Program-made: the position numbers and the translations under genes | Source: a virus | Direction: 5' to 3' (one strand) | Virus record (IMG/VR): IMGVR_UViG_3300033064_001806 | Location: 1-64,000 of that record | DNA: 64,000 bases | The notes under the pieces: model-generated | Told to the model about the DNA's origin: nothing | Database searches by the model: none | Seen by the model: the letters and a program-made list of their open reading frames with translations, nothing else | Shown here: positions 4,084 through 60,932 of the stretch, one piece after another | Numbering within the stretch: position 1 is the first letter of the stretch | How the letters are laid out: each line of letters begins with the position of its first letter

Positions 4084-4536
4084 ATGAGATACGTGTATGT
4101 AGAAAACGGTATAGTTGCAAGTGAAAATCGTTATTTACCTATGAATTGGAATAATATATCTAATTTTAATTCATTGGATGCCGATTCATTGAAGCAATTT
4201 GGGTGGTATCCATACCGATTTGTTGGAGCAACAATACCAAGTGGTTATACAGTTGATAGTTCTTATTATGAAATTACTGATGATGAAGTACTTGAAATTC
4301 AAACTGCAAGACCTTTAACAGATGAAGAAAATCAAACTATAATTGAGTCACAATGGAATAATATAAGATCAAGACGAAATATTGAATTAAATGAAAGTGA
4401 TTGGACACACATTTCAGATTCACCATTAACTGCTGAAAAAAAAGAAGAATGGCAAATATATCGTCAAGAATTAAGAGACATAACTAAGCAATCTAACCCA
4501 TTTTCAGTAGAATGGCCAACTCCACCGGATGCATAA
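4084..4536 (+). CDS. Tail-fibre assembly chaperone-like protein
   Basis: A 150-residue protein. Its C-terminal half follows the pattern of phage tail assembly chaperone domains (Phage_tail_APC type): 'WNNIRSRRN..LNESDWTHI', 'SPLTAEKKEEWQIYRQELRDI' shortened, then 'VEWPTPP' close to the end. Such proteins help fold or attach tail fibres and are usually encoded just after the fibre gene. Here the glycosyltransferase cassette lies between the RCC1 gene and this one. The N-terminal 70 residues are not recognised. It overlaps the next gene by 8 bp. Confidence 0.65.
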   Translation: MRYVYVENGIVASENRYLPMNWNNISNFNSLDADSLKQFGWYPYRFVGATIPSGYTVDSSYYEITDDEVLEIQTARPLTDEENQTIIESQWNNIRSRRNIELNESDWTHISDSPLTAEKKEEWQIYRQELRDITKQSNPFSVEWPTPPDA

Positions 4537-6817
4537 AGTGAAAAATAAAGTATTACAACTAATAAAAGAAATGAATCTTGCTATCTTCAATGAAAATGAT
4601 TTGGTAGATAAGCAGATTATTGTTTTATATCCAGGTACTTTTAATCCAATGGCTTTGCACCATAAAGAAGAATATGATAGATTGTGCCGTAGATTTGGTT
4701 CAGATAGTGTGTATATTGTTACCGATGATATACAAGACGCTATTAGAAAACCACTTACGTTTGCAGAAAAAAACGCTATAATGAAGCGTCATAATGTAAA
4801 GAATGTTATTAAAACAACAAATCCTTATAACCCACTTGAATTATTAGAAGACTTCGATTCAACACATACGGTAGTTATATACGCAGTTGGAAAAGATAAT
4901 ATCGGTAAATTAAATGAATTCAAGCGGTTAACTAAGTATAATAAGGCTTCTAATTTACCTTATAAAGATATTCAAAATCCTTATTTATATTATGTAATTA
5001 CAAATCATGTTGTTTATAATATACCCAGCTTTGGACAAATGAATCAAGAAAATATTCAAAAAGCGTTGGGTGATAAAACTGCTAAACTAACAGAATTAAA
5101 ATCTCGTTTTATTTCTATTTTTGGTTGGTTTGATGCTCAGATTTTTAATACAGTTGTTGCAAGAATGAATGTAAAACGCGGTGAAATGATTGAAGTAAAA
5201 AAGAAAAAGAAAGGCGAGTTAAGACCACTTCACATGATAACAAAAAAGTTTTGGGATAAAGTATTTGAATCTGTTATAACAGAAGAAATAATAGCTTATC
5301 ACAGAAGTTCAAAAAATCTTCATAAGTTTGATATATCAAATGTTAGTGTTGATAGTAATAGACAAAGATATGGATATGGGCTTTATTTTTCTGATAATAT
5401 ACCACATAATCAGTACGGTGATTACTTATATAAAGTAAAACTTTTTAAAGATAAAAAAGAATATGTTTTAATAGACACACAGAATCCAGTTGAAGAAGAT
5501 ATAGTTAATAAAATTGTAGAATCAATTAAGGGGTATGGTAAAAATTCTGATGAAGTTGTTAAGTTTGCTTATAGTGGTTGGTTATTTTACAAAACTTTAT
5601 CAAGAATTTTAGGTGGTGATAAATACGCTTCTTTATTTTTATTTAATAATGGCGTTGATGGTTTAAAAAATAGGATAAGTAATAATTGGAATGATTATAT
5701 ATTATTTAATGATGATTCTATAACTATTGAAGATATTAAATATGACAAAGTATTTGAATCTGTTATAACAGAAGAAGTAGAACAAATAAATGAAGTAGCA
5801 ACATTACCGACTGGTTTATTGAAAGAAATAGAACCAGTTGCCATAGAACTTTTTACGGAAATTGCTGATTTAATACGATTAGATTCGAGTTTTAATGGAT
5901 TTAAGCGTATTTTAGTTTCTAAAACCGAATCTGGACTTGAAAATCAACAATATATTACAACAATTGTAAACCGTTGGATTAAAAACGAAGACTATGTTAA
6001 ACAATATGGTAATGAATTTTTTAAGAGTATTAAGTTACAATCTGTTGAAATTGAAATTGAAGGTGGATTTGCTGCCAAATTTCCTGAAATAACAAAAGTT
6101 GTACAGTATTGTTTTAAAAATGGTAAAGATGTAGAAAATGCAGGATTCTCTTTGGAAATAGAACATTTACTTGATCCAGATTTTGATTCAGAATATGAAT
6201 TAAATAATAAAATAAATTATACAAAATTTAATTCTGAGTTGACACAATTTTCTACCTTTAGTGATGAGTTTGCCGGCGGTGCTGCATTAGGTTCTTCTAC
6301 TAACTTTTTAGATAAAGCACGATTTATAATATATTTCACATTTGAATTTATTCCATTCTTTATAAAGATACAACTTGTAAAACGTGGTACAATAGAAACT
6401 ACAGTTGATACTATAATACAAGAATTTGTTAAAAAAGTATTTTTACCTACTATTGCACATGAGTTGATACATTATGTACAAAGAGTAAAAGAATTTTCTA
6501 ATTCTCAAACACTTCATGGTGCATCATATAATCGTTTACCGAAAGATGATCCAAATTTTTGGAAAACATATTTGTCTGATACTATGGAAATTGGTGCTCA
6601 TGCAGAAGAATTTGTAGAACAAATGAGATCGAATTTTCCAATGGAAACTGATAAATCAATATTGAAAATGTTACAATACGATGAAATACCACTCGGTGCA
6701 TCAGACGCACTAAAAAAATATTACGATGCGTTTTTCAAGGAAATGGGTAATAGTCCAAATGATCCAGTTAAGAAAAGATTTATAAAAACAGTTTATCAAA
6801 TCATAGATAAAAGTTAA
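4529..6817 (+). CDS. Multidomain effector: nucleotidyltransferase + ADP-ribosyltransferase + zincin
   Basis: A 762-residue protein with three separable domains. (1) Residues 28-160 are a HIGH-type nucleotidyltransferase: 'PGTFNPMALHH' at 35-45 and 'FAEKNAIMKRH' near 80. (2) Residues 254-405 look like an ADP-ribosyltransferase of the kind found in 'polyvalent' phage proteins: 'HRSS' at 258, 'YGYGLYFSD' at 281-289, 'YGDYLYKVKL', and 'NDYILFNDDSI' at the end. (3) Residues 430-762 end in a metallopeptidase-like domain with HELIH at 644-648 and an acidic 'HAEEF' about 45 residues later as a possible third zinc ligand. The linkers before domains 2 and 3 are identical (KVFESVITEE, 244-253 and 407-416). 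They contain I-T-E, matching T4 gp21 prohead-protease sites. I infer a packaged, cleaved polyprotein delivered with the DNA. Known families: all three domains. Packaging is inference. Confidence 0.7.
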   Translation: MHKVKNKVLQLIKEMNLAIFNENDLVDKQIIVLYPGTFNPMALHHKEEYDRLCRRFGSDSVYIVTDDIQDAIRKPLTFAEKNAIMKRHNVKNVIKTTNPYNPLELLEDFDSTHTVVIYAVGKDNIGKLNEFKRLTKYNKASNLPYKDIQNPYLYYVITNHVVYNIPSFGQMNQENIQKALGDKTAKLTELKSRFISIFGWFDAQIFNTVVARMNVKRGEMIEVKKKKKGELRPLHMITKKFWDKVFESVITEEIIAYHRSSKNLHKFDISNVSVDSNRQRYGYGLYFSDNIPHNQYGDYLYKVKLFKDKKEYVLIDTQNPVEEDIVNKIVESIKGYGKNSDEVVKFAYSGWLFYKTLSRILGGDKYASLFLFNNGVDGLKNRISNNWNDYILFNDDSITIEDIKYDKVFESVITEEVEQINEVATLPTGLLKEIEPVAIELFTEIADLIRLDSSFNGFKRILVSKTESGLENQQYITTIVNRWIKNEDYVKQYGNEFFKSIKLQSVEIEIEGGFAAKFPEITKVVQYCFKNGKDVENAGFSLEIEHLLDPDFDSEYELNNKINYTKFNSELTQFSTFSDEFAGGAALGSSTNFLDKARFIIYFTFEFIPFFIKIQLVKRGTIETTVDTIIQEFVKKVFLPTIAHELIHYVQRVKEFSNSQTLHGASYNRLPKDDPNFWKTYLSDTMEIGAHAEEFVEQMRSNFPMETDKSILKMLQYDEIPLGASDALKKYYDAFFKEMGNSPNDPVKKRFIKTVYQIIDKS
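5255..5287 (+). repeat. 33-nt direct repeat, copy 1, flanking ADP-ribosyltransferase module
   Basis: 33 bases encoding DKVFESVITEE. Identical to 5744-5776 except for one synonymous base. The two copies bracket the ADP-ribosyltransferase domain in frame. Confidence 0.9.
5744..5776 (+). repeat. 33-nt direct repeat, copy 2, flanking ADP-ribosyltransferase module
   Basis: Second copy of the linker repeat, 489 bp (163 codons) downstream of the first. Recombination between the copies would remove the ADP-ribosyltransferase domain cleanly and keep the frame. Confidence 0.9.
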
Positions 6818-6839
6818 TAAAGTAATAAAAGGTTATGTT

Positions 6840-7481
6840 ATGGAAATAAAAATTGAGAATATACAAGATGTTAAAAAACTTCTTGCAGGTGAACACGATA
6901 GTCAGAATAAAGTTCAAATCGGTTATGTGGGTGAACCATTAGAAGATACAGAAACAAGAAAAGTTGGTGATAAATGGTTTGATTCTGATGGAAATGAATG
7001 GGAACAAAAGAATGGATATAAAGTAAAACTTGGAAAACAATGGCAACAAGAATTACATCAGTATTTAACTACATTCAAAAATTGTCCAAAAGAAACTTGT
7101 ACTTGTTCAATGCCAAAGCGATTAGATGAAAAGATGAGAAATATACATGGAATGTGTTTTGACTGTGTAATTGACATGGAACACAAACTTCGCTTAGAAG
7201 GTAAGTGGGATGAATATGAAAACAGAAAAGTAAAAGAAAATGCTATTGCTTGGTTAGCGGAAGCAGAAAGAGATAAAAATGTAGTAGCAGAAGAATTGTC
7301 TAAAGTAGATTTTGCTAATTCTTTCGGTGATTCTGAAAAATGGAATGTTCCAATAAGTAAAGATGAATTATTAGAAAAAATAGAAAAGGAATTTGAAGAG
7401 TTTAGAAAAAACTTTATTGCAAAGTTGGAAAATGGAGAACAGAATGAAACAGTTAATAGTAGAGCGAGCAGTACCAACTAA
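6840..7481 (+). CDS. Conserved phage protein with Cys-rich putative zinc ribbon
   Basis: A 213-residue protein. Residues about 81-106 hold five cysteines in the order CPKETCTC...GMCFDC, which looks like a zinc ribbon, followed by 'IDMEHKLRLEGKWDEYE', a pattern I associate with uncharacterised proteins of marine T4-like phages. The C-terminal third is a charged, probably helical segment. AAAGG precedes the ATG by 9 nt. It overlaps the next gene by 38 bp in another frame. No enzymatic motif is visible. Function unknown. Confidence 0.6.
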   Translation: MEIKIENIQDVKKLLAGEHDSQNKVQIGYVGEPLEDTETRKVGDKWFDSDGNEWEQKNGYKVKLGKQWQQELHQYLTTFKNCPKETCTCSMPKRLDEKMRNIHGMCFDCVIDMEHKLRLEGKWDEYENRKVKENAIAWLAEAERDKNVVAEELSKVDFANSFGDSEKWNVPISKDELLEKIEKEFEEFRKNFIAKLENGEQNETVNSRASSTN

Positions 7482-8019
7482 CAAGAAATTATACTCTAGT
7501 ATAAAATCTCGCGTTAAAAAAAGATTTAAGGTATGGCCAAGTGCATATGCTTCCGCTGCATTAGTAAAAGCATACAAAAAAGCAGGTGGAGGATATAGAA
7601 CTGTTAAGGAAACTATTCAAAATCCGCAATATACATTAGAAGGATTCTCTACTGATTGTAGTGATTCAATTGTTGAATTGCATTTCAAACTCGGTGACGG
7701 TACAAAAGAAAATTTAACAGAAGCAAAATACCGTGGAAGAAAAGTTTCACTTGGTAAACCATTCAGAACTCCAGATGGACCAAAAAAGTTTTCTGTTTAT
7801 GTAAAAAAACCAAACGGAAATATAGTAAAAGTAAACTTTGGACATAAAGGAAAAGGCGGTGAAAAAACAATGCGTATAAAGAAAAGTAACCCTACTCGTA
7901 GAAAAGCGTTTCGTTCAAGGCATAACTGCGATAATCCTGGAAAAAGATGGAAAGCAAGATACTGGTCATGTAGATTCGGTTGGCCTAGCTCTGGTAAAGG
8001 TGCAATAGATAAAACATAA
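7444..8019 (+). CDS. Two-domain basic protein (DUF5872-like + RHNCDNPG domain)
   Basis: A 191-residue, strongly basic protein. Residues 15-50 carry the 'KRFKVWPSAYASAALVKAYK' pattern of DUF5872-like viral domains. Residues 103-180 carry a second phage domain with 'FRTPDGPKKFSVYVK' and 'RRKAFRSRHNCDNPG' then 'ARYWSCRF'. The two are joined by 'ENLTEAKYRG' (residues 89-98), whose L-T-E/A matches the prohead protease consensus, so the domains may be separated during head maturation. ATG 7444 (MKQLIVE) is chosen over 7393, which lies deeper inside the previous gene. The basic charge suggests DNA or core binding. The family names are recognised; function is not established. Confidence 0.65.
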   Translation: MKQLIVERAVPTNKKLYSSIKSRVKKRFKVWPSAYASAALVKAYKKAGGGYRTVKETIQNPQYTLEGFSTDCSDSIVELHFKLGDGTKENLTEAKYRGRKVSLGKPFRTPDGPKKFSVYVKKPNGNIVKVNFGHKGKGGEKTMRIKKSNPTRRKAFRSRHNCDNPGKRWKARYWSCRFGWPSSGKGAIDKT

Positions 8020-8850: not shown

Positions 8851-9183
8851 ATGAACAACACACAGAAAAATATAACAAAGAAAATAATACGTGAGTATGT
8901 GATAAACTATTTAATGGAAGGTAAGAAACCAAAAGGTGGACTTTCCAAATGGTTTAAAGAAAAATGGATTGATATTTCACGTAAAAGCAAAAAAGGTGGG
9001 CATCCACCATGTGGTGATTCCGCTGGAAGTAAGTCAAGAAAAGGTGGAAAGAGAGCATATCCAAAATGTGTACCTGCGAGTAAAGCAACATCAATGACTG
9101 CAAAACAAAAGAAAAGTGCAGTAACACGTAAAAGAAAATATGGTGCAACTAAACGTGGAAAAGCAAAAATGGTTTCAACTTAA
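8851..9183 (+). CDS. Small basic DUF6321-like protein with cleavable N-terminus
   Basis: A 110-residue, very basic protein. After an N-terminal helix (residues 1-23, 'IIREYVINYLME') comes 'GGLSKWFKEKWIDISRKSKK', then 'GGHPPCGDSAGSK' and 'YPKCVPASKA'. This is the order seen in the DUF6321-type domain of phages and some large viruses. L-M-E/G at 21-24 fits prohead protease cleavage that would release the basic domain. Two cysteines may bind metal. Probably a DNA-associated virion protein; function unknown. Confidence 0.65.
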   Translation: MNNTQKNITKKIIREYVINYLMEGKKPKGGLSKWFKEKWIDISRKSKKGGHPPCGDSAGSKSRKGGKRAYPKCVPASKATSMTAKQKKSAVTRKRKYGATKRGKAKMVST

Positions 9184-14653: not shown

Positions 14654-15337
14654 ATGGATGTAAACGCTTTCATACATAAAATAAAAGAATCCGAAGAATT
14701 CAAACAGTTTCAAGAAGAACTTGATGAAATGAGTGTAACTAGTATGGTCGCTGGATATGAAACTCCAAAGGCATTTGCTGCTAATGAAGATGATTTTGAA
14801 GAACATAATAAAGAAACTGCGGAAGTTTACGGATATAAACTTGTTCCAAAGACTAAAAAAAGAAATTATGAATCTGTATATAAACAAACTATGCGTTTAT
14901 TAAATGAAGCATCTGTTTCGGTATTTGCATCCGATGGTGATGAATTCAAAGATGGATTTGTAAAAGATGAAGACACTTGGAGAAAATACGTATCAACAAA
15001 AGCAGAAGCTTCTGGATATAAAATAGTTAATGAAAAGAATGTTTTTGGTAAAACTCCAGAAAAATTAAAATCTGTAAAAGAATATTTAAGTGAAGCATCA
15101 TATAAAGAATTCCGTAAAGATGAAACAAGAACTACAAATAGAAAAATAAATGATTCTATTAAACGCATAAATAGAATTATGTATGAAGTTGAGAAAGTAG
15201 TAGAACATGCTTCACGATTAAAGACTGAAATGGCAGTTGATCAAAGAACACTTTGGGGGGAATCACGTAATCGTCTTGTAAAAATATCAGAACGAATTAA
15301 TAGAATTAGTAAAAAAATACACGAATTAGGTGCTTAA
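14654..15337 (+). CDS. Prohead core/internal polyprotein with repeated modules
   Basis: A 227-residue acidic/charged protein. Two related modules follow each other: 'FAANEDDFEE...AEVYGYKLV' (residues 41-64) and 'FASDGDEFKD...AEASGYKIV' (91-125). Each is followed by a segment ending in a perfect prohead-protease site: 'RLLNEAS' (81-87, L-N-E/A) and 'EYLSEAS' (143-149, L-S-E/A). Residues 160-227 form a helical domain. The neighbour is the protease gene, whose stop-start spacing is 1 bp. I infer a core protein cut into peptides during head maturation. Family not named. Confidence 0.6.
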   Translation: MDVNAFIHKIKESEEFKQFQEELDEMSVTSMVAGYETPKAFAANEDDFEEHNKETAEVYGYKLVPKTKKRNYESVYKQTMRLLNEASVSVFASDGDEFKDGFVKDEDTWRKYVSTKAEASGYKIVNEKNVFGKTPEKLKSVKEYLSEASYKEFRKDETRTTNRKINDSIKRINRIMYEVEKVVEHASRLKTEMAVDQRTLWGESRNRLVKISERINRISKKIHELGA

Positions 15338-15338
15338 A

Positions 15339-16001
15339 ATGAAACAATTACTCGTAGATACTATACTATTTAGTGCAAGTCCAAGAATGATTGCAGAATC
15401 TGAAAAGAAAAACGATGGTAAAGTTATAGTTTCGGGTGTTTTACAAAGAGCAGAAGTAAAAAATCAAAATGGTAGAGTTTACCCAAAAAAGATTTTAATG
15501 CGTGAAGTGAAAAAATATGCTGAAACAAATATTAAAGAAAATAGAGCGTTGGGTGAGTTGGATCATCCAGATTCTTCTGTTATTAATTTAAGAAATGTTT
15601 CTCATAATGTATTGAGTGTAGATTGGAAAGGCAATGATGTAATTGGTACAGTAGAGATACTTCCAACCCCATCTGGCAATATTCTAAAACAACTGCTTGG
15701 TGCAGGAATTCGCCTTGGTATTTCTTCTCGTGGTTTAGGTTCGGTTGAAGAAATAAGTGAAAATACAGTTGAAGTACAAGAGGACTTTGAATTAATAGGT
15801 TGGGACTTTGTATCGAATCCATCCACACAAGGTGCATTCATGTATGACGATGGTCATCAGAATGAAGGTTTAATTAGAGAGGGTGTTAGTTTAGAAACTA
15901 TTTCTAAGATTGATCCTAAAATTCAACGTATTCATAATAACATTACAAATATTATTTGTGAAATTGGAAATATTTGTGAATGTATATTTGGAGATAAATG
16001 A
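15339..16001 (+). CDS. gp21: Prohead maturation protease (T4 gp21-like)
   Basis: A 220-residue serine protease that degrades the scaffold and trims capsid proteins. 'VVKNQNGRVYP'-type strand ('EVKNQNGRVYPKKIL', 39-53), catalytic His in 'GELDHPDSS' (His76) and Ser in 'LGISSRGLGSV' (Ser129/130) follow the assemblin-like fold of gp21. Residues 17-21 (MIAE/S) would be a self-cleavage site of the (L/I)-x-E type. ATG 15339 is preferred to GTG 15330. It lies between the putative core polyprotein and the DUF3008-like gene, and overlaps the latter by 4 bp. Confidence 0.93.
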   Translation: MKQLLVDTILFSASPRMIAESEKKNDGKVIVSGVLQRAEVKNQNGRVYPKKILMREVKKYAETNIKENRALGELDHPDSSVINLRNVSHNVLSVDWKGNDVIGTVEILPTPSGNILKQLLGAGIRLGISSRGLGSVEEISENTVEVQEDFELIGWDFVSNPSTQGAFMYDDGHQNEGLIREGVSLETISKIDPKIQRIHNNITNIICEIGNICECIFGDK

Positions 16002-16603
16002 TGCCTGCACTTTCACAAAAACAACAAAAATTAATGGGACTTGCTTTAGCAGTTAAACGTGGTCAAATTCCTGCTTCAAAAGTTAATAAATCTATTGAAC
16101 AACTTGCAAAATCAATGACTGAGAAAGATATTGAAAAGTTTGCAGCAACAAAACACAAAGGACTTCCAAAAAAAGTTGGTGAAAGTAAAACAACATTAAC
16201 AAAAGAAGAATTAAATCAATTAGTTGCCGATGCTGTTCAAGAAGTAATGAAAGAGAGATTTAGTACAAAAGTTCTTACATCAGAACAAAAAAGAATGTAT
16301 ATAGAATCAATCGGTAGATACAATGAATATCGTGCAGTAGTTCATCGTTCAAAACAACTACCCGCAGTTGTATCTGAAATTAAAAGAATGGTTGAGTTTG
16401 CAAGTAAAAACATGGTTGAAGAATCTGGTGATTGGTTTGAAGGTGTTTCTCATAGAAGAAGTTCAAAGCAGTTAAAAGAATCTGTGAAAGTTTTTGAACA
16501 AACAACACAAAAGATTGTAAAACTACAAAGAACTTTGGAATCAATTTACGAGAATATAGGTAAAAATCTCAGTAAATTCTATGAGATAAAAGAGATTAAT
16601 TAA
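15998..16603 (+). CDS. DUF3008-like protein with helical C-terminus
   Basis: A 201-residue protein. Residues 3-66 follow the DUF3008 pattern seen in phages: 'QKQQKLMGLALAVKRGQ', 'KSMTEKDIEKFAATKHKGLP'. Residues 70-200 are helical; 'VVSEIKRMVEFAS' followed by a Trp and a second helix pair resembles the C-terminal domain of the gene at 14654, suggesting a shared ancestry (tentative). ATG 15998 and 16001 are adjacent alternatives. Probably a prohead component; function unknown. Confidence 0.6.
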   Translation: MMPALSQKQQKLMGLALAVKRGQIPASKVNKSIEQLAKSMTEKDIEKFAATKHKGLPKKVGESKTTLTKEELNQLVADAVQEVMKERFSTKVLTSEQKRMYIESIGRYNEYRAVVHRSKQLPAVVSEIKRMVEFASKNMVEESGDWFEGVSHRRSSKQLKESVKVFEQTTQKIVKLQRTLESIYENIGKNLSKFYEIKEIN

Positions 16604-16621: not shown

Positions 16622-16849
16622 ATGAATGATAGAGTATATACAAACTCTAATTCGGCTCATGTAAAAGTAAAAAATACAGGTATGCCGGTTGATGTTATGA
16701 TTAAAATATTCAAACGTAAAGTAAAAGAAGCAGGTATTCTTGAAGAATATAAAAATCGTATGGAATATATTAAACCATCAAAGAAAAAAGCTGAAAAAAG
16801 AAACGCTGCTATTAGAAGACAGCGAAAATTAGACGTAGAAAATATCTAA
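16622..16849 (+). CDS. rpsU: Ribosomal protein bS21-like protein
   Basis: A 75-residue, basic protein. Residues 28-65 match bS21: 'IFKRKVKEAGILEEYKNR' then 'MEYIKPSKKKAEKRNAAIRR', against the bS21 pattern FKRxxxxxGIlxExxxRxxYxKPSxxRxRK. bS21 sits near the anti-Shine-Dalgarno end of 16S rRNA. Phage-encoded bS21 is known from other large phages. Here it lies inside the head cassette, with its own AAGGA ribosome-binding site, 20 bp before the ADP-ribosyltransferase gene. After IKPS it has a Lys/Arg-rich tail where Flavobacterium bS21, as I recall, has a Tyr that helps hide the anti-Shine-Dalgarno. Confidence 0.8.
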   Translation: MNDRVYTNSNSAHVKVKNTGMPVDVMIKIFKRKVKEAGILEEYKNRMEYIKPSKKKAEKRNAAIRRQRKLDVENI

Positions 16850-16868: not shown

Positions 16869-17930
16869 ATGACCTCGCATTATATCGAAGAAATTATTCG
16901 TGAAGAAATACGGAAAATCATTGAAGATATGGAAAGAAATTCTTTTTTATCCGAGGAAGACGAGGAAGCGCCCGCAGCAGAGGAAACTCCAAAGGAAGAA
17001 CCAAAAGAGGAAACTCCAAAGGAAGAACCAAAAGAGGAAGAGAAAAAATCAGCGGATGATACTGCTTCGAGTGAAGAAGGTGGTGATGAAAAAAAAGAAG
17101 AAGAACCACCAGCAGAAGAAGAATCACCAACAGGTTTAAAATCAGTTGAATTGACAAATCCAGTTGAAGTTCAAAACTTAAAAAAGAAATCAACGAGTAT
17201 TGGTCCAGAAACTCAAGGTAAACTTCTATCATTTGAGTACGAAGAAATTTTAGATGTTTACGATCAGGCTGTTCAAAAAGCAGAAGATGAAGACTCAAAA
17301 AAGAAAATTGGTTTAATAACTAAAAAAATCCAAAACATTTCAATTCTAAAACATAGTATAATTAGTAAAAAACCATTGGACAGGGAAACAACAATGGCTT
17401 TAGATTATTACTACAAACACACTTCTGATATAAATGAATTAGTTCGCTCTGATATTCAATTAGCAACTAAAAAGCAAATTGAAAAGCAATTAAGACTTGG
17501 CAAACCAAAAGAAAAAGAAAGTAAAAGAACTCCAGTATTTACTGATGCCATACAAACGTTCACCGTTAGCAGTTTAGACTTTGCATTCAGAGAAGAAATG
17601 CAACGTTTAGATTTTAATTTAGTTGTATATCGTTCAATAGAAACACCAAATGTTTTACAGCATTTTTTGGATGCGGGTACATGGATTGATAAGGGCTATG
17701 TAACTACTTCCCTAAATCCACTTATAGTTGAAAGTTTGAATAAGAAACGATTACCACTTTTTGAAATGTTAATTCCAGCAGGTTCATCGGTACTCACATT
17801 ACCATGTAAAGTAAATGATTACTGCCATGAAACAGAAGTAACCTTACCGAGAAATTGTAAATTTACAATCCACGGATATAATGAAACACGAAACATATAC
17901 AAAGTATTAGTGGAGCAAAACAATGCCTGA
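16869..17930 (+). CDS. Alt-like ADP-ribosyltransferase, probably packaged in head
   Basis: A 353-residue protein. Residues 1-29 are helical and end in 'FLSE' (L-S-E/E), a possible prohead-protease site. Residues 30-90 are a Glu/Pro/Lys low-complexity linker. Residues 220-350 form an R-S-E type ADP-ribosyltransferase: Arg255 in 'VVYRSIETP', 'GYVTTSLNP' (276-284) as the STS motif, 'FEMLIPAGSSVL', and the catalytic E-x-E as 'HETEVTLPR' (Glu321/Glu323). T4 Alt is such an enzyme; it is packaged, cut by gp21 and modifies host RNA polymerase. The same role is inferred here from position and the cleavage motif; the target is unknown. AGGAG precedes the ATG. Confidence 0.8.
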   Translation: MTSHYIEEIIREEIRKIIEDMERNSFLSEEDEEAPAAEETPKEEPKEETPKEEPKEEEKKSADDTASSEEGGDEKKEEEPPAEEESPTGLKSVELTNPVEVQNLKKKSTSIGPETQGKLLSFEYEEILDVYDQAVQKAEDEDSKKKIGLITKKIQNISILKHSIISKKPLDRETTMALDYYYKHTSDINELVRSDIQLATKKQIEKQLRLGKPKEKESKRTPVFTDAIQTFTVSSLDFAFREEMQRLDFNLVVYRSIETPNVLQHFLDAGTWIDKGYVTTSLNPLIVESLNKKRLPLFEMLIPAGSSVLTLPCKVNDYCHETEVTLPRNCKFTIHGYNETRNIYKVLVEQNNA

Positions 17931-18188: not shown

Positions 18189-19220
18189 ATGAATGATTTA
18201 CTGAAAGAAGCAATTGCAGATGCTAAAGCAGTTAAAGAAGTAGCACTCGCAAACGCAAAACTCGCTTTGGAAGAAGCGTTCACACCTCGTTTACAGTCTA
18301 TGCTTTCTAAGAAACTTTCTGAAGAAGCAGAAGCCGAAGAAACAGAAGAACCTGTTGAAGAATACGGTTTCTACAATGAAGCAGAAGAAGAAGAGAAAGA
18401 ACCAGCAATGGAAGAGGGCGATGAAGAAACTGAAGAACCAGCAATGGAAGAAGCAGAAGATGAAGAAGAACCAGCAATGGAAGAAGGTGAAGATGAAGAA
18501 GAACCAATGGACGAAGATTTGATGGAAATAATCCGTCAACTTGAAGAAGATTTAGTATCGTCTGACATTGGTGGTGGTGACAATAAAAAACCAGCTCCAA
18601 AAGCATCATCTACATCTACTCAAATGAAAGGAGAAAAATTGGTTCAATTAGTTGAAGAAGAAGGTGAAGAAGATGACGAAGAAGTAGCAGAAATCCAAGA
18701 GATTTTACGTGCTCTTCGTGAAGAAGAAGAAACAGAAGAACCAATGGAAGAAGCAGAAGAAGAAGAAGTTGACATCAAAGAAGTTTTACGTGCTCTTCGT
18801 GAAGAAGATGAAGAAGAAGCTCCTGTTGAGGAAGGCGAAGAAGAATCAGAAGAAGAACCAGTTGCAGAATCAAGACTTCGTGAAGCATATGCTGTTATTA
18901 AGTTCTTACGTTCAAAAATCAACGAAGTTAATCTTTTGAATTCAAAGTTATTGTTCTCTAACAAATTGTTTAGAAGTAACTCTTTAACCGAAGCTCAAAA
19001 AATGACTGTTATTGAAAACTTTGATCGTGCAACAACTCTCCGTGAAGTCAAACTTGTGTATACAACTTTGGGTGAAGCATTGAAAGGTGCAACTAAAACT
19101 CGTCGAATTAAAGAATCGTTTGCATCTAAACCAACTGCAAGCACACGTCCTTCAAGTAATATTTTGAATGAAGGCGATGTTATGGCAAGCCGTTTACGCA
19201 AATTAGCAGGTTTAAAATAA
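18189..19220 (+). CDS. gp22: Prohead scaffold protein (T4 gp22-like)
   Basis: A 343-residue scaffold around which the capsid shell assembles, degraded later by the gp21-like protease. It is extremely acidic, with Glu-rich runs over residues 40-240 and duplicated 'EILRALREEEE' / 'EVLRALREEDE' units. Helical ends carry several protease sites: 'LLKEAI' (4-9), 'KLSEEA', 'SLTEAQ', 'ILNEGD'. It sits immediately before the capsid gene as in T4. ATG 18189 with GGAGAT just upstream is preferred to the TTG at 18177. Confidence 0.88.
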   Translation: MNDLLKEAIADAKAVKEVALANAKLALEEAFTPRLQSMLSKKLSEEAEAEETEEPVEEYGFYNEAEEEEKEPAMEEGDEETEEPAMEEAEDEEEPAMEEGEDEEEPMDEDLMEIIRQLEEDLVSSDIGGGDNKKPAPKASSTSTQMKGEKLVQLVEEEGEEDDEEVAEIQEILRALREEEETEEPMEEAEEEEVDIKEVLRALREEDEEEAPVEEGEEESEEEPVAESRLREAYAVIKFLRSKINEVNLLNSKLLFSNKLFRSNSLTEAQKMTVIENFDRATTLREVKLVYTTLGEALKGATKTRRIKESFASKPTASTRPSSNILNEGDVMASRLRKLAGLK

Positions 19221-19241: not shown

Positions 19242-20879
19242 ATGAATGTACAATCTTTATTAAATGCTTCTGGAAGTCCCCACAAGCAACTTATCAAAGA
19301 AAACCGTCAAATAGTTAACAAATGGTCAAAGACAGGTTTACTTGATAACTTAAACAACGACTATGAAAAGAACTCTATTGCAGTTCTTTTAGAAAACCAA
19401 GCAAAACAACTTATAGATGAATCAAACCGTACAGGTACAGCAGCTGGCTCAGAAGAATGGGCAGGTGTTGCACTTCCATTGGTTCGCAGAATTTTCTCTG
19501 AAATTGCTGCGAAAGATTTTGTGTCTGTTCAACCAATGAACTTACCTTCTGGTCTTGTATTCTTCTTAGATTTCAAATATGGTACAGCACAACCTGGATT
19601 CACAGCCGCTCAAGGTAAAGATACACAGACTGACTCTGTATTTGGTGTAACAGGTGCAGAAGCAAAAGACGCTGATGCTTCAGGTGGTCTTTATGGTGCA
19701 GGTCGTTTTGGTTATTCAATCAATGAAGCAAATATCAGTTTAGCAAAAGCAGCTACATTATCTGCAACAGAATTCGTAACTGGTTCTGTAACACACGCAA
19801 CACCATCATTATTCCAACACGATACAGAATTCAAAGACGCTTACTCTGGATCTCTTGTAGCTGGCGGTATTATGACAATTACAATTAATTCAAGTTCTCT
19901 TGTAAATGAAGATTTTGACGCAGTTCGTGCTTTCAAAATTAGTGGTTCAACTATCTTCAGCTATTTTCCACAATACACATTCACATCAAACAATAATTCA
20001 ACAATTACATTCGTTGTTTCTGCATCAGCAGCTCCTGCAACAATCGGTATTGCATACGAAAAGCAACCTACAGCAACAACTCGTGGTGACTTTGAAGATG
20101 GTTTAGCAGGTTCAAGTCTTGATATTCCAGAAATCAACTTAGAATTACGTTCAGAATCCATTGTTGCTAAAACACGTAAGTTGAAAGCAGTATGGACACC
20201 TGAATTCGCACAAGATTTGAATGCATATCACTCAATCGATGCAGAAGCTGAATTAACTTCTATGTTGTCTGAGTATATCTCTCAAGAAATTGACTTAGAA
20301 ATTCTTGATATGTTGATTAAGAATGCACAAACAACAGAAAGATGGTCAGCACGTATCGGTCGGGCTTATAACTCTGCTACAAGTGCATTTGCAGATTATT
20401 CAACAGCACAAGGTGCAGCATCTGCATATAACCAACAAACTTGGTTCCAAACATTAGGTACAAAGATTCAAAAAGTATCCAACATCATTCATCAGAAAAC
20501 ATTACGTGGTGGTGCAAACTTCTTAGTATGTTCTCCACAAGTTGCTACAATTCTTGAATCTATGCCTGGCTATGCAGTTGATGGCGAAGGTATGAAATTC
20601 GCAATGGGTGTTCAAAAAGTTGGTCAATTAAATGGCCGTATCACAGTTTACAAGAACCCATATATGTTAGAAAACCAAATGTTAGTTGGTTTCCGTGGAA
20701 CACAATTCCTCGAAACTGGCGCGGTTTATGCACCATATATTCCACTTGTAATGACACCATTGGTTTACGATCCAACTAACTTCACACCAAGAAAAGGTGT
20801 GTTGACACGCTATGCGAAGAAAATTGTTCGTCCTGAATTCTACGGTTTGATTCAAATCGAGTCTTTAGGTGACATCTAG
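19242..20879 (+). CDS. gp23: Major capsid protein (T4 gp23-like)
   Basis: A 545-residue HK97-fold shell protein. Recognisable blocks are 'LPLVRRIFSEIAAKDFVSVQPM' (shortened; residues 79-99), 'FFLDFKYGT' near 107, 'TRKLKAVWTPEFAQDL' near 310, and the conserved C-terminus with 'YAPYIPLVMTPLVYDP' and 'RYAKKIVRPEFYGLIQI'. The likely maturation cut is after Glu60 ('LIDE/SNRTG'), close to position 65 in T4. AGGAAG precedes the ATG, and a strong GAAA-loop terminator follows, which closes the head operon. Confidence 0.97.
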   Translation: MNVQSLLNASGSPHKQLIKENRQIVNKWSKTGLLDNLNNDYEKNSIAVLLENQAKQLIDESNRTGTAAGSEEWAGVALPLVRRIFSEIAAKDFVSVQPMNLPSGLVFFLDFKYGTAQPGFTAAQGKDTQTDSVFGVTGAEAKDADASGGLYGAGRFGYSINEANISLAKAATLSATEFVTGSVTHATPSLFQHDTEFKDAYSGSLVAGGIMTITINSSSLVNEDFDAVRAFKISGSTIFSYFPQYTFTSNNNSTITFVVSASAAPATIGIAYEKQPTATTRGDFEDGLAGSSLDIPEINLELRSESIVAKTRKLKAVWTPEFAQDLNAYHSIDAEAELTSMLSEYISQEIDLEILDMLIKNAQTTERWSARIGRAYNSATSAFADYSTAQGAASAYNQQTWFQTLGTKIQKVSNIIHQKTLRGGANFLVCSPQVATILESMPGYAVDGEGMKFAMGVQKVGQLNGRITVYKNPYMLENQMLVGFRGTQFLETGAVYAPYIPLVMTPLVYDPTNFTPRKGVLTRYAKKIVRPEFYGLIQIESLGDI

Positions 20880-49964: not shown

Positions 49965-50282
49965 ATGAAAAAAGAAGAACTTGTAGAAGTAATTACACAG
50001 AGAGTACTTGAAACACTCAGCGAACGAATTTCATTATTGGAATCGAGTGGATTTGATATTATATTCAGTTCTCTTAGAAAAGAGTTGAATAAAATAACTA
50101 TACTTCCAGATAATGTAATTGACGCAAGCCAGTATAAAGAACACGAATTAGTCGATGCTTTGAAGAAAATTGGTTATGAGTATAAAAAACCAATGGGTAA
50201 TAAACTACATTTTTTTAATAAAAAAACAAGTATAAGTCTTTATCTAATTCAGAAAACTTTGAAAATAACACTTATGCCATAA
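49965..50282 (+). CDS. Hypothetical protein, 105 aa, with CTS-like N-terminus
   Basis: The first 20 residues, 'EELVEVITQRVLETLSE', are an amphipathic helix ending L-S-E/R, similar to the N-termini of other suspected packaged proteins in this window. The remainder is a small alpha/beta domain ('ELVDALKKIGYEYKKPMGNK', 'ISLYLIQKTLKITLMP'). Not recognised. It precedes another candidate of the same style by 10 bp. Confidence 0.45.
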   Translation: MKKEELVEVITQRVLETLSERISLLESSGFDIIFSSLRKELNKITILPDNVIDASQYKEHELVDALKKIGYEYKKPMGNKLHFFNKKTSISLYLIQKTLKITLMP

Positions 50283-50292: not shown

Positions 50293-51162
50293 ATGAAAAA
50301 AACACAGACTAAAAAAGTACGTATTATTAAAGAAGATGTTTCTTCTGCAAATATAAGCCCCATAAGTTACATGGTGTTTATAGATATTTCTAGTTATCTA
50401 TCCAAAGGTCGTGGTTTATTAAATTCTATGTTTTCAAGTAAAGCAACTGAATCTATTACAAAATGGTTTGGTAGAGTAAAAGAAGACGAAACTTATAAGG
50501 AAAATGAAGAGGCATTCAAAGCCATTTCTTCAAGATTTATGGGCAATCCTATTTTGAAAAAACTTTATAGTTCAATAGACAAACTTAAAACCATTTCAAC
50601 TGGCGAAACAGATCAAAGTGAAAGAGATAAAGATATTGAAAACTTATTGGGTAAAATAAGTTTATTTATTAAAAATAGACTTACAAAAAAAGACAGGGAA
50701 CTTATTGGTAAAATTTCAACTGTAGTTAATTCGATTGGTAATAATATTTCTTCTACCATAAAATCAGACTTAGAAGTAATGACAAAAGCAGAAGCACCTG
50801 CACCAATCCAGTCAAAATCTAATGAAGAAAAACCAAAAGTAGAAGGAAAAGTAAATGAAAGACTAAAAAATAAGTTGCGTAAGAAAATCAAAGAAATAAT
50901 TAGAACTCAGATGCTAACCCCAAAATTAACTAAAGAAACTCCATTGTATGACATTGCAGCCCTTATTAGGAAAGATTGGAAGAATGTTTATCTCGGTGCT
51001 AAACCTTATCTTGATGCAATGAGTAAGCTCACTAATATATCAGATAGACATGGTGCAGATGATGCTAAAACTATTGTTCTTTATTTTCTTTCTAATGCTT
51101 CTGCATGGAGAGGAGATACAGCAAAGGCAGTAAAGGCTCATCTTAAATCATTAGTCAAGTAA
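50293..51162 (+). CDS. Hypothetical Lys-rich protein, 289 aa
   Basis: N-terminus 'QTKKVRIIKE/D' gives an I-K-E near residue 14. Residues 60-165 are helical and charged. 'RLKNKLRKKIKEIIRTQM' near 198-215 is a basic helix like the C-terminal helix of the ParB-like protein at 21016 ('LRPLVKEAIRTM'). Residues 225-289 form a small globular domain ('ETPLYDIAALIRKDWKNVYL'). No family recognised. It shares the region with the hydrolase and ParB-like genes and may be co-packaged. Confidence 0.45.
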   Translation: MKKTQTKKVRIIKEDVSSANISPISYMVFIDISSYLSKGRGLLNSMFSSKATESITKWFGRVKEDETYKENEEAFKAISSRFMGNPILKKLYSSIDKLKTISTGETDQSERDKDIENLLGKISLFIKNRLTKKDRELIGKISTVVNSIGNNISSTIKSDLEVMTKAEAPAPIQSKSNEEKPKVEGKVNERLKNKLRKKIKEIIRTQMLTPKLTKETPLYDIAALIRKDWKNVYLGAKPYLDAMSKLTNISDRHGADDAKTIVLYFLSNASAWRGDTAKAVKAHLKSLVK

Positions 51163-51251: not shown

Positions 51252-51887
51252 ATGTACGTGATAAAGTTAATAGATATATTAAAAGAAATGGGGATTGATA
51301 AAGGTGCGTTCCATGGATTTGGAATGAAACCACAAGATATGCGTGTTGATAGTTGCAATGTGGAATGGACAAGTCCAGACCAAGATACTGGTTGCCCTGC
51401 GTTTTCTGATTCAACTAAAATTACAGAAGAAGATATTACCAAGGCAATCGAATATCTAAATACGGAAAAACTAAAAACATTAATAGCATATTCAAGGGGT
51501 GGTGCAATATTATTACAAGCGTTATCTATGGGTGCTAAGAAACCATCAACAGTTTATTTAGTGGCTCCTGCTTGGAATAGACAATGGCCTACTGTGAGTT
51601 TAACTGGTTCTGAAGTAAACGGAAGTGGTGCAATAATTCATGGTGGTAGTGATAATGTAGTTCCATTAAAACATTCTGTAATATTAGCAAAGGCAAGTGG
51701 TATGCCATTATATGTGTTCCTTGGAATGAATCATGTTAGCATATTAAAAAACAAAGATAATCCAACTTCTGGAATACTATTGAAAAATTTAGAAAATGCT
51801 ATGGAGGTTTTGCCAGATTGGGGTGCAAGTGGAAAAGCAACGGAAGAAGAGTTAAAAATGCAAGAAGAGTTTATAAATAATATTTGA
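51252..51887 (+). CDS. Alpha/beta-hydrolase-fold protein
   Basis: A 211-residue protein. 'TLIAYSRGGAILLQAL' (about 77-92) contains the nucleophile elbow (Y-S-R-G-G, with Ser as nucleophile), 'AIIHGGSDNVVPLKHS' (about 127-142) offers the acid (Asp), and 'LGMNHVSIL' (about 157-165) the His. This order is that of alpha/beta serine hydrolases. The N-terminus 'YVIKLIDILKE/MG' again ends L-K-E at residue 12, like a capsid-targeting sequence. Substrate unknown; a hydrolase for host lipid, peptide or ester is possible. It overlaps the next gene by 4 bp (TTGA). Confidence 0.65.
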   Translation: MYVIKLIDILKEMGIDKGAFHGFGMKPQDMRVDSCNVEWTSPDQDTGCPAFSDSTKITEEDITKAIEYLNTEKLKTLIAYSRGGAILLQALSMGAKKPSTVYLVAPAWNRQWPTVSLTGSEVNGSGAIIHGGSDNVVPLKHSVILAKASGMPLYVFLGMNHVSILKNKDNPTSGILLKNLENAMEVLPDWGASGKATEEELKMQEEFINNI

Positions 51888-52795
51888 GAAAAATTATCAG
51901 TAAATTAAGTGTATTATTAAATGAAGTTAGAGACTTCAGAAAAAATGCAATAGATAATGCTAAATTTCGCCTTAGAGAAACATTCATTAATGAAGAAGGT
52001 GAAGACAAATCACAAGATGAAATAAAGGCAATTCTGAAAAAAGATTACTCTTCTTTTGTTAAAGAGTTGGGTGATAATATAAAAGATGAAAAATTTCTAA
52101 ACGCTATAAAATCACTTTCTAACACATCACCTCTTAAAGTATCAGGAATGTCTCCCGTAGTTACAGATTTACAACCAACACAGAATGAAGTTATAATGGA
52201 TAAATCTTTAAGTTATCCACTAACAGATGTACCAAGTGCCGAACAATACTTAAAAGGTGGAGTGGTTGCCGTTGCAGGTAAATCAATTATAACATCAGGT
52301 GGTGGTAAGTATGTAATAGATGGACATCACAGATGGTCGCAAGTGTTGTGTATCAATCCAGACGCTAAAATTAAAGCATTAGATTTAACAGACATTAAAA
52401 AACCGATTGAAGCATTAAAAGCAACACAGATTGGAATAGCTGCACAAACAGGTGCAGTTCCAACCGCAGCAGGTGGTGGAGTAAACCTTTTTACAGTTGG
52501 TGAGGGTGAGTTAAAAAAATATGTTATTGATAAAATAAAAGAACCAGTTGTTGCTGTATTTGAAAAATATGGTAAAGGTGATACACCAGAAACAATTGCA
52601 GATTATATTTGGGAAAATGTTCAAATACTTAAAAAACAATCTCCCCCAGTAGCAGGTGCACCTAAACGTGATGTGATGCCACAAACAGATGATGCACCAC
52701 AATGGGTTGACAATACTTTCAATGTAGAACAAATACCAGAAGAATTAACTAATCGATTCAAAGAACTATTACGGTATAACAACAGAAATAAATAA
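51884..52795 (+). CDS. ParB/sulfiredoxin-fold-like protein, copy 2
   Basis: A 303-residue protein starting with TTG inside the hydrolase stop (TTGA). 'KYVIDGHHRWSQV' at 142-154 is the same core as in the gene at 21016. The flanking 'AVAGKSIITSGG' and 'NPDAKIKALDL' also fit. The N-terminal 14 residues end in 'LLNE/V', a possible prohead-protease site. The C-terminus ends 'LTNRFKELLRYNNRNK'. Outside the ParB-like core the two copies differ, so they are old paralogues or separate acquisitions. A terminator follows. Confidence 0.65.
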   Translation: MRKIISKLSVLLNEVRDFRKNAIDNAKFRLRETFINEEGEDKSQDEIKAILKKDYSSFVKELGDNIKDEKFLNAIKSLSNTSPLKVSGMSPVVTDLQPTQNEVIMDKSLSYPLTDVPSAEQYLKGGVVAVAGKSIITSGGGKYVIDGHHRWSQVLCINPDAKIKALDLTDIKKPIEALKATQIGIAAQTGAVPTAAGGGVNLFTVGEGELKKYVIDKIKEPVVAVFEKYGKGDTPETIADYIWENVQILKKQSPPVAGAPKRDVMPQTDDAPQWVDNTFNVEQIPEELTNRFKELLRYNNRNK

Positions 52796-57246: not shown

Positions 57247-57256
57247 TACTTATACA

Positions 57257-57325: not shown

Positions 57326-57348
57326 TTTTATTAAAACCCAATTTTTTT

Positions 57349-57391: not shown

Positions 57392-57433
57392 AATAAAAAT
57401 GACGTTTTCAATAAAAAAATGATGGAGAAATAA

Positions 57434-59287: not shown

Positions 59288-59329
59288 TTTTATATAGTTA
59301 TTGTATATGTAAACATCACAGTAATTAAT

Positions 59330-59701
59330 ATGGAGAATATAGTGAGAGATTTAGTTAATGAAGGCAGAGAACTGCAAAATAGAGTAACAAGTAAATTTTC
59401 AAAGATGGTAAAAGAAGCCGCTCAAGAAGAAGTTTCTTCACCAATAAGAAATCTTGTGAATAAAATGGAAAAATTTACAGATAATAATCAACATACCGAT
59501 ACATTGAGTGAATTGGCAAAACATTTAAAATCAAAAAAACATCAACTTTTGTTGCAAGCAATTGATGATATTCATGAAGTAGAAGGTTCTCTACCAAGTG
59601 AAATTAGTAAATATAGAGATCGTATATACAATGAATTGACAGCACTCGCTAAAAAAAGTATGAATGCTAAAGAGTATTCTGCTATTATGGGTTCGATGTA
59701 A
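59330..59701 (+). CDS. Small helical protein, paralogue of 60579, CTS-like start
   Basis: A 123-residue protein. Residues 55-123 align with the gene at 60579: 'LSELAKHLKSKKHQLLLQAI' against 'LLELAKLVGDKKYQKVLEAV', both ending in a 'KEYSAIMGSM' / 'QEFGVIYSAIG' tail. The N-terminus 'ENIVRDLVNE/GREL' ends in V-N-E/G at residue 11, like a capsid-targeting sequence. GTG 59342, with GGAG 6 nt upstream, is an alternative start. Probably a small internal head protein. Family unknown. Confidence 0.55.
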   Translation: MENIVRDLVNEGRELQNRVTSKFSKMVKEAAQEEVSSPIRNLVNKMEKFTDNNQHTDTLSELAKHLKSKKHQLLLQAIDDIHEVEGSLPSEISKYRDRIYNELTALAKKSMNAKEYSAIMGSM

Positions 59702-59753
59702 ATTAAATAGTTAAAGGTGTTATAGTTCTTTGGAATAATGAAGGAGTATAGTT

Positions 59754-60026: not shown

Positions 60027-60092
60027 ATAATAATTTTTAAAATGAATTCATAGAACTATAACACACATTTTTTATAAGTTAGGAGACTTGTT

Positions 60093-60272: not shown

Positions 60273-60302
60273 AAAAGGGTGATGGAAACATCACCCTTTT
60301 TT
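60271..60302 (+). terminator. Rho-independent terminator with GAAA loop
   Basis: A6-GGGTGATG (60271-60284), GAAA, CATCACCC-T6 (60289-60302). A perfect 14-bp A/T-extended stem. Confidence 0.93.
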
Positions 60303-60311
60303 ATTTATCCC

Positions 60312-60319
60312 ATATTTAT
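60312..60319 (+). promoter_or_regulatory. Candidate phage late promoter element (ATATTTAT)
   Basis: Just after a terminator and 50 nt before the ATG at 60370 (37 nt before ATG 60357). Confidence 0.5.
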
Positions 60320-60369
60320 ATTTACAATAGTATTTTTCACATCAAGGCAAATATAAATGGGATGGCGTA

Positions 60370-60576
60370 ATGTCAGTAAAAAAACCAAGAGAATACAGAA
60401 GTGTATTGGCAAAAATATGTTTAGTACTTGGGACATTCTTCAATCCTCTTGGATTCGATGCGGCTTTTGCTTTAATGATGAAATTTACAGGGAGCTACAT
60501 ACTTACCGATATTATATTTTATTCGGTAGCTCTATTATTTTTTGGACTTTATTTTATCTTATCTCGTAGGAGTTAA
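60370..60576 (+). CDS. Small two-helix membrane protein
   Basis: A 68-residue protein starting at ATG 60370. It has a hydrophobic stretch at about 12-36 ('VLAKICLVLGTFF..LGFDAA') and a second at 46-65 ('IIFYSVALLFFGLYFIL') followed by 'SRRS'. The overlapping frame from 60357 is a less likely coding option because it has no coherent membrane pattern. It may be a holin-like or host-membrane protein; no lysis partner is adjacent. Confidence 0.55.
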   Translation: MSVKKPREYRSVLAKICLVLGTFFNPLGFDAAFALMMKFTGSYILTDIIFYSVALLFFGLYFILSRRS

Positions 60577-60578
60577 AA

Positions 60579-60932
60579 ATGAACATATCATCAAGAAAAC
60601 AACTGTTAGCAGAAGCAGGTGATGTATTAAAAAAGATTCGTGAAGAAGTTGAAGGCCTCGATAAAAAAGTAGAAACTTCTGTTAAAAAAATAATTAAGTT
60701 CTGTGAAGAAGATAAAGACATGGTATCAGGACTTCTTGAACTTGCAAAATTAGTTGGTGATAAAAAATACCAAAAAGTATTAGAAGCGGTAAAAGAAATT
60801 GTAAAAGCAGAAGAAGGCTCACACTATTTCATCGATCAATATATAACAGAAATTAAAAGTATATTATTATCTGCTGCAAAAGAACAATTTAGCTCACAAG
60901 AGTTTGGTGTAATATATTCTGCAATCGGCTAA
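60579..60932 (+). CDS. Small helical protein, paralogue of 59330, CTS-like start
   Basis: A 117-residue protein 2 bp after the membrane gene, with an AGGAG site. The N-terminus 'SSRKQLLAE/AGDVL' has a perfect prohead-protease motif L-A-E/A at residues 10-13, so about 12 residues would be removed in the head. The rest is helical, with a Lys/Glu pattern, and shares the C-terminal domain with the gene at 59330. Together they look like internal-protein paralogues. Family unknown. Confidence 0.58.
   Translation: MNISSRKQLLAEAGDVLKKIREEVEGLDKKVETSVKKIIKFCEEDKDMVSGLLELAKLVGDKKYQKVLEAVKEIVKAEEGSHYFIDQYITEIKSILLSAAKEQFSSQEFGVIYSAIG

Follow-up and report, generated by a model that had tools for sequence, protein, structure and literature searches.

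Introduction

The proteins that tailed phages carry into the cell are known for few phages. In T4, the prohead protease gp21 trims itself by nine residues and removes the 65-residue propeptide of gp23, and gp22, gp67 and gp68 are degraded to small peptides, according to the available text of PMC9958956; Alt is reported to be cut at ITE-6 and LTE-619 in the available text of PMC5694885. A capsid-targeting sequence (CTS) is restricted to IPII and IPIII in the former source and assigned to all T4 internal head proteins in the latter. Here we describe a set of N-terminal tags with (L/I)xE sites in the 110,363-base virus record IMGVR_UViG_3300033064_001806, whose bases 1-64000 are here called the window. 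An initial annotation of the window had listed suspected capsid-packaged effectors sharing such sites and had taken cutting by T4 gp21 after (L/I)xE as its yardstick. The yardstick agrees with the T4 sequences, in which the sites read IAE10/A in ipII and ipIII, LIE9/T in gp21 and LTE65/A in gp23 (the number is that of the glutamate, P1; the slash marks the cut before P1′; the aliphatic residue is P3).

Judged by its terminase, portal, gp21-like protease and major capsid genes, the record is that of a T4-like myovirus. When proteases are compared, Microcystis phage Mel-JY01 (69% over 83% of the protein) is the closest among named relatives, and the Flavobacterium immuto phages (48% over 81%) come next; our literature search found no relevant paper on immuto virion proteomics and none under the Mel-JY01 name. 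Gene calling gave 125 genes in four separate pieces of the record, 57 of them in the window, where genes are named below by their first base. L002, L003 and L004 denote parts of the same record beyond the window, L080 is Mel-JY01, and other L numbers are loci of relatives. G001 is a 177-kb record of a close relative with a 99% identical protease, and L130 is G001:37000-41800. We consider it likely that this phage fills its head with diverse cargo by means of T4-type capsid-targeting propeptides, which the gp21-like protease would then cut.

Results

Conservation of the site near the N-terminus

Relatives were gathered from IMG/VR, and a family was aligned when it held at least 4 distinct N-termini, the window's own included. 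Testable families were obtained for 50 of the 125 genes, every one in the window. For each residue type we determined how often it was conserved together with an aliphatic residue two places before it. At residues 7-40 of the 50 families, a conserved [LIV]xE was found for 21 of 133 glutamates; the corresponding count for residues of all other types was 80 of 1564 (odds ratio 3.5, p 1.6e-5). In the protein interior the excess was small and not significant (1.5, p 0.10 at residues 71-140; 1.46, p 0.13 at residues 100-180), and therefore the site is mainly an N-terminal feature. The excess persisted when the protease, scaffold, capsid, 14654, portal and terminase families were removed (15/116 glutamates versus 67/1377, p 0.001); it is therefore not confined to known head proteins.

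Exchange of tags between genes

Tags were found to change places between otherwise different proteins. The two adjacent genes L004:3673 and L004:4359, beyond the window, have 30 of 32 N-terminal residues in common and nothing after. At the DNA level, L004:3673-3771 and L004:4359-4457 are identical at 92 of 99 bases, and the preceding 60 bases at 27 of 60, an apparent case of recent tag transfer; no relatives of L004:4359 were found by an IMG/VR scan. In the Alt-like family of 16869, a helix such as MTFASLEKLIREETRKVIENLERSFSLYEE is swapped for MIKLKDILLE in L062 and for MYEYVEYILE in Mel-JY01. Most rows of the 51884 family have a propeptide of 17-42 residues, and L114 begins with MLKLLDILKE/D and L118 with MIKLMDLLKE/D. 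The 51884 propeptides do not align (3/16 rows at a fixed column). Under a looser rule, 13 of the 16 rows have an [LIVM]xE that precedes the mature block by at most 14 residues, the exceptions being Mel-JY01, with the tag MGILKQLLKE at another spacing, and two paralogues.

A propeptide of the DLVNEGRxLQ...NE/G type is similar in 59330, L003:13384, L097:7676 and L119:9803, and past it weak similarity was seen just between L097:7676 and L119:9803. In the immuto phages, another tag was found at four places in each of four records. One prediction was borne out: once a tag had been seen on the relative L125:15079, the window phage's own copy, L002:3638, proved to start with the 10-residue tag MSKLSNILKE/S; its Mel-JY01 counterpart starts with MQFKQYILGE/S. 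Mel-JY01 also has three paralogues (L080:19277, 19924 and 21057) that start with MIKLxSL(L/V)xE and continue with ISDRVWHxT, one of them just 60 residues long, and by their sequences the trio appears to be an amplified tagged family.

Scans for tags across the virosphere

In the fetched loci (1356 unique proteins in 355 families), E comes next after a strict decapeptide pattern in 7 families, and no other residue does so in more than 2; for a loose pattern the figures are 15 families with E and no more than 6 with any other residue. Both patterns were written post hoc, after examples were known, and therefore IMG/VR was scanned with the tag core alone, residue 10 being left free. Among the matches listed, MIKLxDLL gave 119 open frames in 55 families, with E10 in 44, and MKT[FY]xEF[ILM] gave 130 open frames in 67 families, with E10 in 50. 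Against a background of 7% E the binomial p values are 3e-41 and 2e-42, respectively; they are nominal, since the family counts come from blastp at 1e-3 on short proteins and are possibly too high, and each scan comprises at least 120 stretches that are not random samples.

The MKT[FY]xEF[ILM] tags are shaped like the T4 capsid-targeting peptide. One mature domain was found behind either tag type among the matches listed (E 3e-9; 40% identity over 73 residues). The window protein 7444 likewise has parts that match listed proteins behind both tag types.

A multidomain protein with predicted sites at both junctions

Gene 4529 encodes a nucleotidyltransferase, an ART-like (ADP-ribosyltransferase-like) module and a HELIH domain in one polypeptide, the domains being assigned partly by eye:

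4529..4570, + strand, N-terminal tag ending LIKE14/M (6/8 rows; the other 2 without N-terminus)
4571..5284, + strand, HIGH-type nucleotidyltransferase domain ending KVFESVITE/E (phrog_395 cytidyltransferase, E 0.003)
5285..5773, + strand, middle module AYHRSS...YGLYFS, ART-like by eye, ending at the second KVFESVITE/E
5774..6814, + strand, HELIH-containing domain (IAHELIHYVQ), putative zinc metallopeptidase by motif

Both junctions have the sequence DKV[FY]E[SN]VITEE, not just in the window but also in relatives from nine contigs, and predicted cuts at VITE/E would leave three fragments of roughly 238, 163 and 347 residues. In L092 and L093 the flanks are joined through one junction copy and the middle module is absent, and in L050, L052, L030 and L075 the nucleotidyltransferase is a separate gene that ends at the junction. 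The HELIH motif is invariant among the aligned sequences. No Pfam match was found for 4529, and the AlphaFold2 model of the middle and third domains was poor (pLDDT 51). In Mel-JY01, the homologues of L002:3638 and 50293 are fused, the 50293 part being second, with KIINE/S at the junction.

Head proteins with the same site pattern

The head cassette contains the following genes with predicted sites:

14654..15337, + strand, core-type protein at the gp67/gp68 position, between portal and protease; IKE12/S, LSE147/A
15339..16001, + strand, gp21-like prohead protease; predicted self-cut IAE20/S
15998..16603, + strand, head-cassette protein; VGE62/S, LKE161/S
18189..19220, + strand, scaffold at the gp22 position, between the protease and major capsid protein genes; LKE7/A and many further [LI]xE
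19242..20879, + strand, major capsid protein; predicted maturation cut LIDE60/S

The gp21-like protease placed at 15339 by the initial annotation was confirmed by matches to phrog_207 (E 4e-55) and to the T4 gp21 structure PDB 5jbl (E 2e-18), and 19242 matches PDB gp23 chains (5vf3, E 9e-32). The same predicted site pattern is present in the capsid, scaffold and protease proteins. In row counts, which here and below are distinct N-termini including the window's own, with gapped rows scored as misses, the site was kept in 32/34 rows for the protease (the remaining 2 gapped), 15/16 for the scaffold and 15/15 for the capsid protein. For 14654, IKE12/S was found in 37/39 rows and LSE147/A in 39/39; for 15998, VGE62/S was found in 29/33 and LKE161/S in 33/33. 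The genes 14654, 15998 and 18189 probably encode core parts rather than effectors, so that two of the strongest effector cases of the initial annotation, 18189 (scaffold) and 14654 (core-type), are better read as parts of the head core. The cassette also holds a phage-encoded ribosomal protein S21 (16622-16849, phrog_21469), likewise annotated in Mel-JY01.

Tagged cargo genes

Besides 4529, the window contains these candidate cargo genes:

7444..8019, + strand, basic two-domain protein with a DUF5872 part (Pfam DUF5872, E 5e-9); IVE7/R, LTE93/A
8851..9183, + strand, small basic protein, DUF5872-like (E 6e-5, below cut-off); tag ending LME23/G
16869..17930, + strand, Alt-like ADP-ribosyltransferase; tag helix, LSE29/E, acidic linker, ART domain
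21016..22008, + strand, ParB-like protein (DGHHRW by eye; phrog_2859); tag LFE12/D
22110..23402, + strand, hydrophobic protein; LSE19/K, LSE97/GFF
49965..50282, + strand, small protein; diverged propeptide ending [LIV]xE26/[GSA]
50293..51162, + strand, tagged protein; IIKE14/D
51252..51887, + strand, alpha/beta-hydrolase-like protein (Abhydrolase_1, E 1e-4, below curated cut-off); tag ..IKLIDILKE12/M
51884..52795, + strand, ParB-like protein (DGHHRW by eye; phrog_2859); propeptide ending INE37/E
59330..59701, + strand, protein with a propeptide of DLVNEGRxLQ type; VKE29/A
60579..60932, + strand, tagged protein, MNISSRKQLLAE12/A (5/5 rows, close relatives)

Pfam and PHROGs gave weak or no matches for most cargo. 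The DGHHRW motif common to 21016 and 51884 is presumably a ParB-like signature. In 49965, [LIV]xE/[GSA] was found in 13/13 rows, with a pairwise identity of 0.31 before the site and 0.61 after it; in 50293 the site was kept in 13/14 rows (the other gapped), with identities of 0.17 and 0.44. In 8851, E/G was found in 19/19 rows and an aliphatic P3 in 18/19, and the residues upstream have diverged. Both sites of 7444 (numbered from ATG 7444) were kept in 17/17 rows, both LSE19/K and LSE97/G of 22110 in 8/8, VKE29/A of 59330 in 4/4 close rows, the site of 51252 in 10/11 (the other gapped) and LFE12/D of 21016 in 8/12 (the other 4 gapped). For 16869, LSE29/E was aligned in 17/26 rows and 9 were gapped; this alignment and that of 51884 contain mis-started rows or paralogues.

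The motifs named in the initial annotation for its strongest cases are all in the sequence: LME/G at residue 23 of 8851, LAE/A at 12 of 60579, LKE/A at 7 of 18189, LSE/G at 97 and ISE/G at 271 of 22110, LNE/A at 85 and LSE/A at 147 of 14654, and LTE/A at 93 of 7444. Their conservation held for 8851, 18189, 22110 LSE/G, 14654 residue 147, 7444 and 60579. It failed for LNE/A at 85 of 14654, kept in 4/39 rows, and for ISE/G at 271 of 22110, where among 12 relative open reading frames the exact form was found in 1, LKE/A in 3 and neither in 8. The list itself appears too short: further tagged genes were found outside the window, and 4529 comprises several domains, with a site at each junction.

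The best of five models of 16869 (mean pLDDT 70, mature domain mostly >80; the other four poor, 46-51) shows a tag helix and a disordered linker ahead of a domain with an ADP-ribosyltransferase fold. Foldseek against PDB ARTs gave a best E of 5.5e-7, with a TM score of 0.33 by query and 0.55 by target, and the alignment motifs YRS, TTSLNP and ETEVTLPR correspond to the R, STS-like and ExE motifs of the ART fold. PDB profile searches with the alignments of 4529 and 16869 gave nothing convincing. As modelled, 16869 is candidate cargo with an ADP-ribosyltransferase fold. The proposal that the candidates include enzymes is thus supported for 16869 by its fold, and for 51252 and 4529 it comes from weak matches and motifs. 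Beyond the window, L003:14926 resembles DHH phosphoesterases, the match being below the curated cut-off.

The content of the set differs even between close relatives. In G001, no match to 51252 was found and 51884 was found only as a C-terminal remnant of 17 residues, 94% identical, in L130; 49965 (61% identity) and 50293 are retained. A remnant of 51884 where 51252 and 51884 would stand reads as a recent deletion of cargo. The relatives of 50293 (L099:3626, L100:7022, L130:2324 and L112:1592) range from about 193 to 448 residues, and this range suggests further gain and loss of modules in that gene. An element [LIV]xE/(G/N)FF followed by a hydrophobic or amphipathic stretch recurs at residue 97 of 22110, near residue 355 of L003:13384, and in L097:7676 and L119:9803, proteins that are otherwise mostly unrelated.

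Motif counts and points against the tags

The initial annotation gave weight to the A/G subset of sites and proposed counting it in the first 30 residues against shuffled proteins. With the start codons of 4529, 8851, 51252 and 59330 set to its coordinates, a choice that favours the hypothesis, (L/I)xE/(A/G) showed no enrichment, being present in 3 of 57 window genes versus 2.0 in shuffled proteins (p 0.34). The filter is too strict, because T4 gp21 has LIE9/T and Alt is reported to be cut at ITE-6 in the available text of PMC5694885, so that P1′ is not limited to A or G; the present sites also have S, D, M, R, K or I at P1′. When A, G or S was allowed, 7/57 genes versus 3.3 and 12/125 versus 6.7 were found (p about 0.03-0.04). 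For (L/I)xE alone the counts were 26/57 versus 16-17 in the window (p 0.003-0.007) and 48/125 versus 35 in the record (p 0.007-0.013), a mild enrichment that peaks at residues 7-18. Counting within one genome cannot settle whether the tags are real. The central proposal, a set of T4-type propeptides that end at a prohead-protease site, has good support from conservation, tag swapping and the virosphere scans; its shuffle-count argument is lost.

Several observations weigh against the proposal. In the whole record, (L/I)xE/(A/G) was not enriched in residues 1-30 (6/125 genes versus 4.1 shuffled, p 0.23), and the 232 deposited coding sequences of Mel-JY01 showed no excess of (L/I)xE (68 versus 61-63) or of (L/I)xE/(A/G) (3 versus 5.5-6.0). 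Similar sites occur where packaging is not expected: RecA (53716) and terminase (9920) also have (L/I)xE near the N-terminus, and at the 85% threshold a conserved LSE10 is present in the 9 rows of 57434, which by eye is ribonucleotide-reductase-like. In 23415, 2/7 rows kept the site at the aligned positions, and in the distant loci L064 and L066 the junction of 4529 reads IVGD instead of VITE and is followed by INE/V. Among the IMG/VR matches listed, P1′ is mainly A and S after the T4-like tag and broad after MIKLxDLL. Of 70 records with tags, 35 also have a gp21-like protease, 33/61 with E at position 9 or 10 and 2/9 without (p 0.15); the 70 were drawn from 72 records of at least 20 kb among 160 stretches listed, mostly fragments, and this co-occurrence is suggestive only. 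The element TATATTT[AG] lies upstream of 6/22 candidates and of 26/123 genes generally, which is hardly more.

Upstream elements and possible host

The T4-type late promoter TATAAATA was not informative. In relatives, TATATTTAT was found upstream of the cassette gene 13487 (33/34), of the unassigned genes 45199 (4/9) and 4084 (6/11) and of the portal gene (4/31), and upstream of the tagged genes 21016 (5/7), 22110 (2/8) and 49965 (5/18), a comparison of tagged and structural families made post hoc. Upstream of 15998 (19/34) and 14654 (6/29), TATATTTG was found rather than TATATTTAT. A small untagged gene at L003:8084-8440 has TATATTTAT upstream and may be another late gene. Several non-structural genes (among them 956, 52931, L002:7559 and L003:16740) have TATATTTG upstream, which we take to resemble the Bacteroidetes -7 element. 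This phage group may therefore have a Bacteroidetes host, although Microcystis is the host given for Mel-JY01.

Discussion

With conserved sites, tag exchange, junction sites, one ART fold and a protease at hand, we infer that the tagged proteins are packaged, cut and injected. A short N-terminal helix would mark diverse proteins, its simplest form being a decapeptide like MIKLxDLLxE, a presumed equivalent of the T4 capsid-targeting sequence MKTYQEFIAE. During late expression, the tag would dock the protein into the prohead core. After closure of the shell, the gp21-like protease, which would also process the scaffold, core and capsid proteins, would cut after [L/I/V]xE and remove the tag, and in multidomain cargo like 4529 it would separate the domains as well. 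The mature proteins would stay with the DNA and presumably be ejected into the host.

The cutting step is an inference and not an observation, and E10 is conserved though P1′ varies, as would be expected if the tags were uncut core-docking helices with the glutamate as part of the docking surface, on proteins that keep their N-termini or leave with the core. We think this improbable, since in 49965 and 50293 the would-be docking residues diverge while P3 and P1 stay, and the same pattern is found at internal domain junctions and at the expected cut sites of the capsid protein, protease and scaffold. That the shared motif is a matter of chance, with (L/I)xE common, favourable cases picked and the proteins unrelated in any respect, could draw on the lack of enrichment of the motif as first stated and on the existence of conserved false positives. 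For the whole set this is very improbable and already contradicted, as controls with the 19 other residues, with interior positions and with residue 10 left free single out E; individual weak cases, 23415 and 60579 for example, may still be due to chance.

More weight attaches to the proposal that the tagged proteins are core components for head assembly or sizing, degraded or expelled and not delivered to the host as effectors. The genes 14654, 15998 and 18189, perhaps with 7444 and 8851, lie in or beside the head cassette, and gp22, gp67 and gp68 of T4 end as small peptides in the available account (PMC9958956). Against this, 16869 has an ADP-ribosyltransferase fold, and weak matches and motifs make 51252, L003:14926 and 4529 enzyme-like. 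Unlike an assembly part, 51252 is without a match in the close relative G001, where 51884 is a mere remnant of 17 residues. We regard an assembly role for the set as rather doubtful, and favour packaged cargo for delivery. If the tags are capsid-targeting propeptides, the injected set of many uncultured T4-like phages, including proteins of unknown function, could be predicted from N-termini, and phages would build that set by swaps of a ten-residue tag and by insertion of modules between protease sites.

We lean towards a wider proposal, that of a modular capsid zip code across the virosphere, in which MIKLxDLLxE and MKTFxEFIxE decapeptides are freely exchanged between genes and bring unrelated families, in numbers from dozens to hundreds, as well as whole polyproteins into the heads of T4-like phages of many hosts. 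Were it true, sequence alone would tell which proteins are packaged and injected.

Comparison with known systems

The nearest described system is that of the T4 internal proteins IPI-IPIII, in which a CTS of about 10 N-terminal residues ending in (L/I)xE stands on diverse cargo and is cut by gp21 (available text of PMC3012670 and PMC9958956). Tags of about 10 residues with this ending on otherwise unrelated proteins are present here too, several window members being longer (14-37 residues). In contrast to T4, the tags here are of the MIKLxDLLxE type or longer helices, P1′ is broad, enzymes and a multidomain protein with junction sites appear to be among the cargo, and in our reading one genome has a dozen or more tagged proteins. 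T4 Alt, like 16869, is an ART in a T4-like head set with an N-terminal site (available text of PMC5694885). Unlike Alt, 16869 is a head-cassette gene next to that of the scaffold, and its product has a helical tag of 29 residues and an extended acidic linker; the sequence similarity is marginal (PHROG E 0.008).

The polyvalent proteins (Iyer et al. 2017), which 4529 may resemble, are multidomain early-infection proteins for which packaging has been predicted; their domains include ART, ParB-like, nucleotidyltransferase and peptidase types. In the available text of that paper (PMC5512222) their processing is ascribed to their own peptidase domain and no tag is described, whereas the domains here are tagged and separated by predicted prohead-protease sites. 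The ejection proteins of SPN3US and phiKZ-type giant phages share N-terminal propeptides on head proteins removed by a gp21-related protease (available text of PMC10052503 and PMC5694885). The SPN3US propeptides given there are mostly longer than 100 residues (two are 20 and 24), and those predicted here are mostly 7-37. A genome-wide or virosphere-wide set of such tags is apparently undescribed in the literature searched, which comprised titles and abstract openings, subscription journals being mostly outside it. We therefore read the tag set as a variant, both new and broad, of the internal-protein system of T4.

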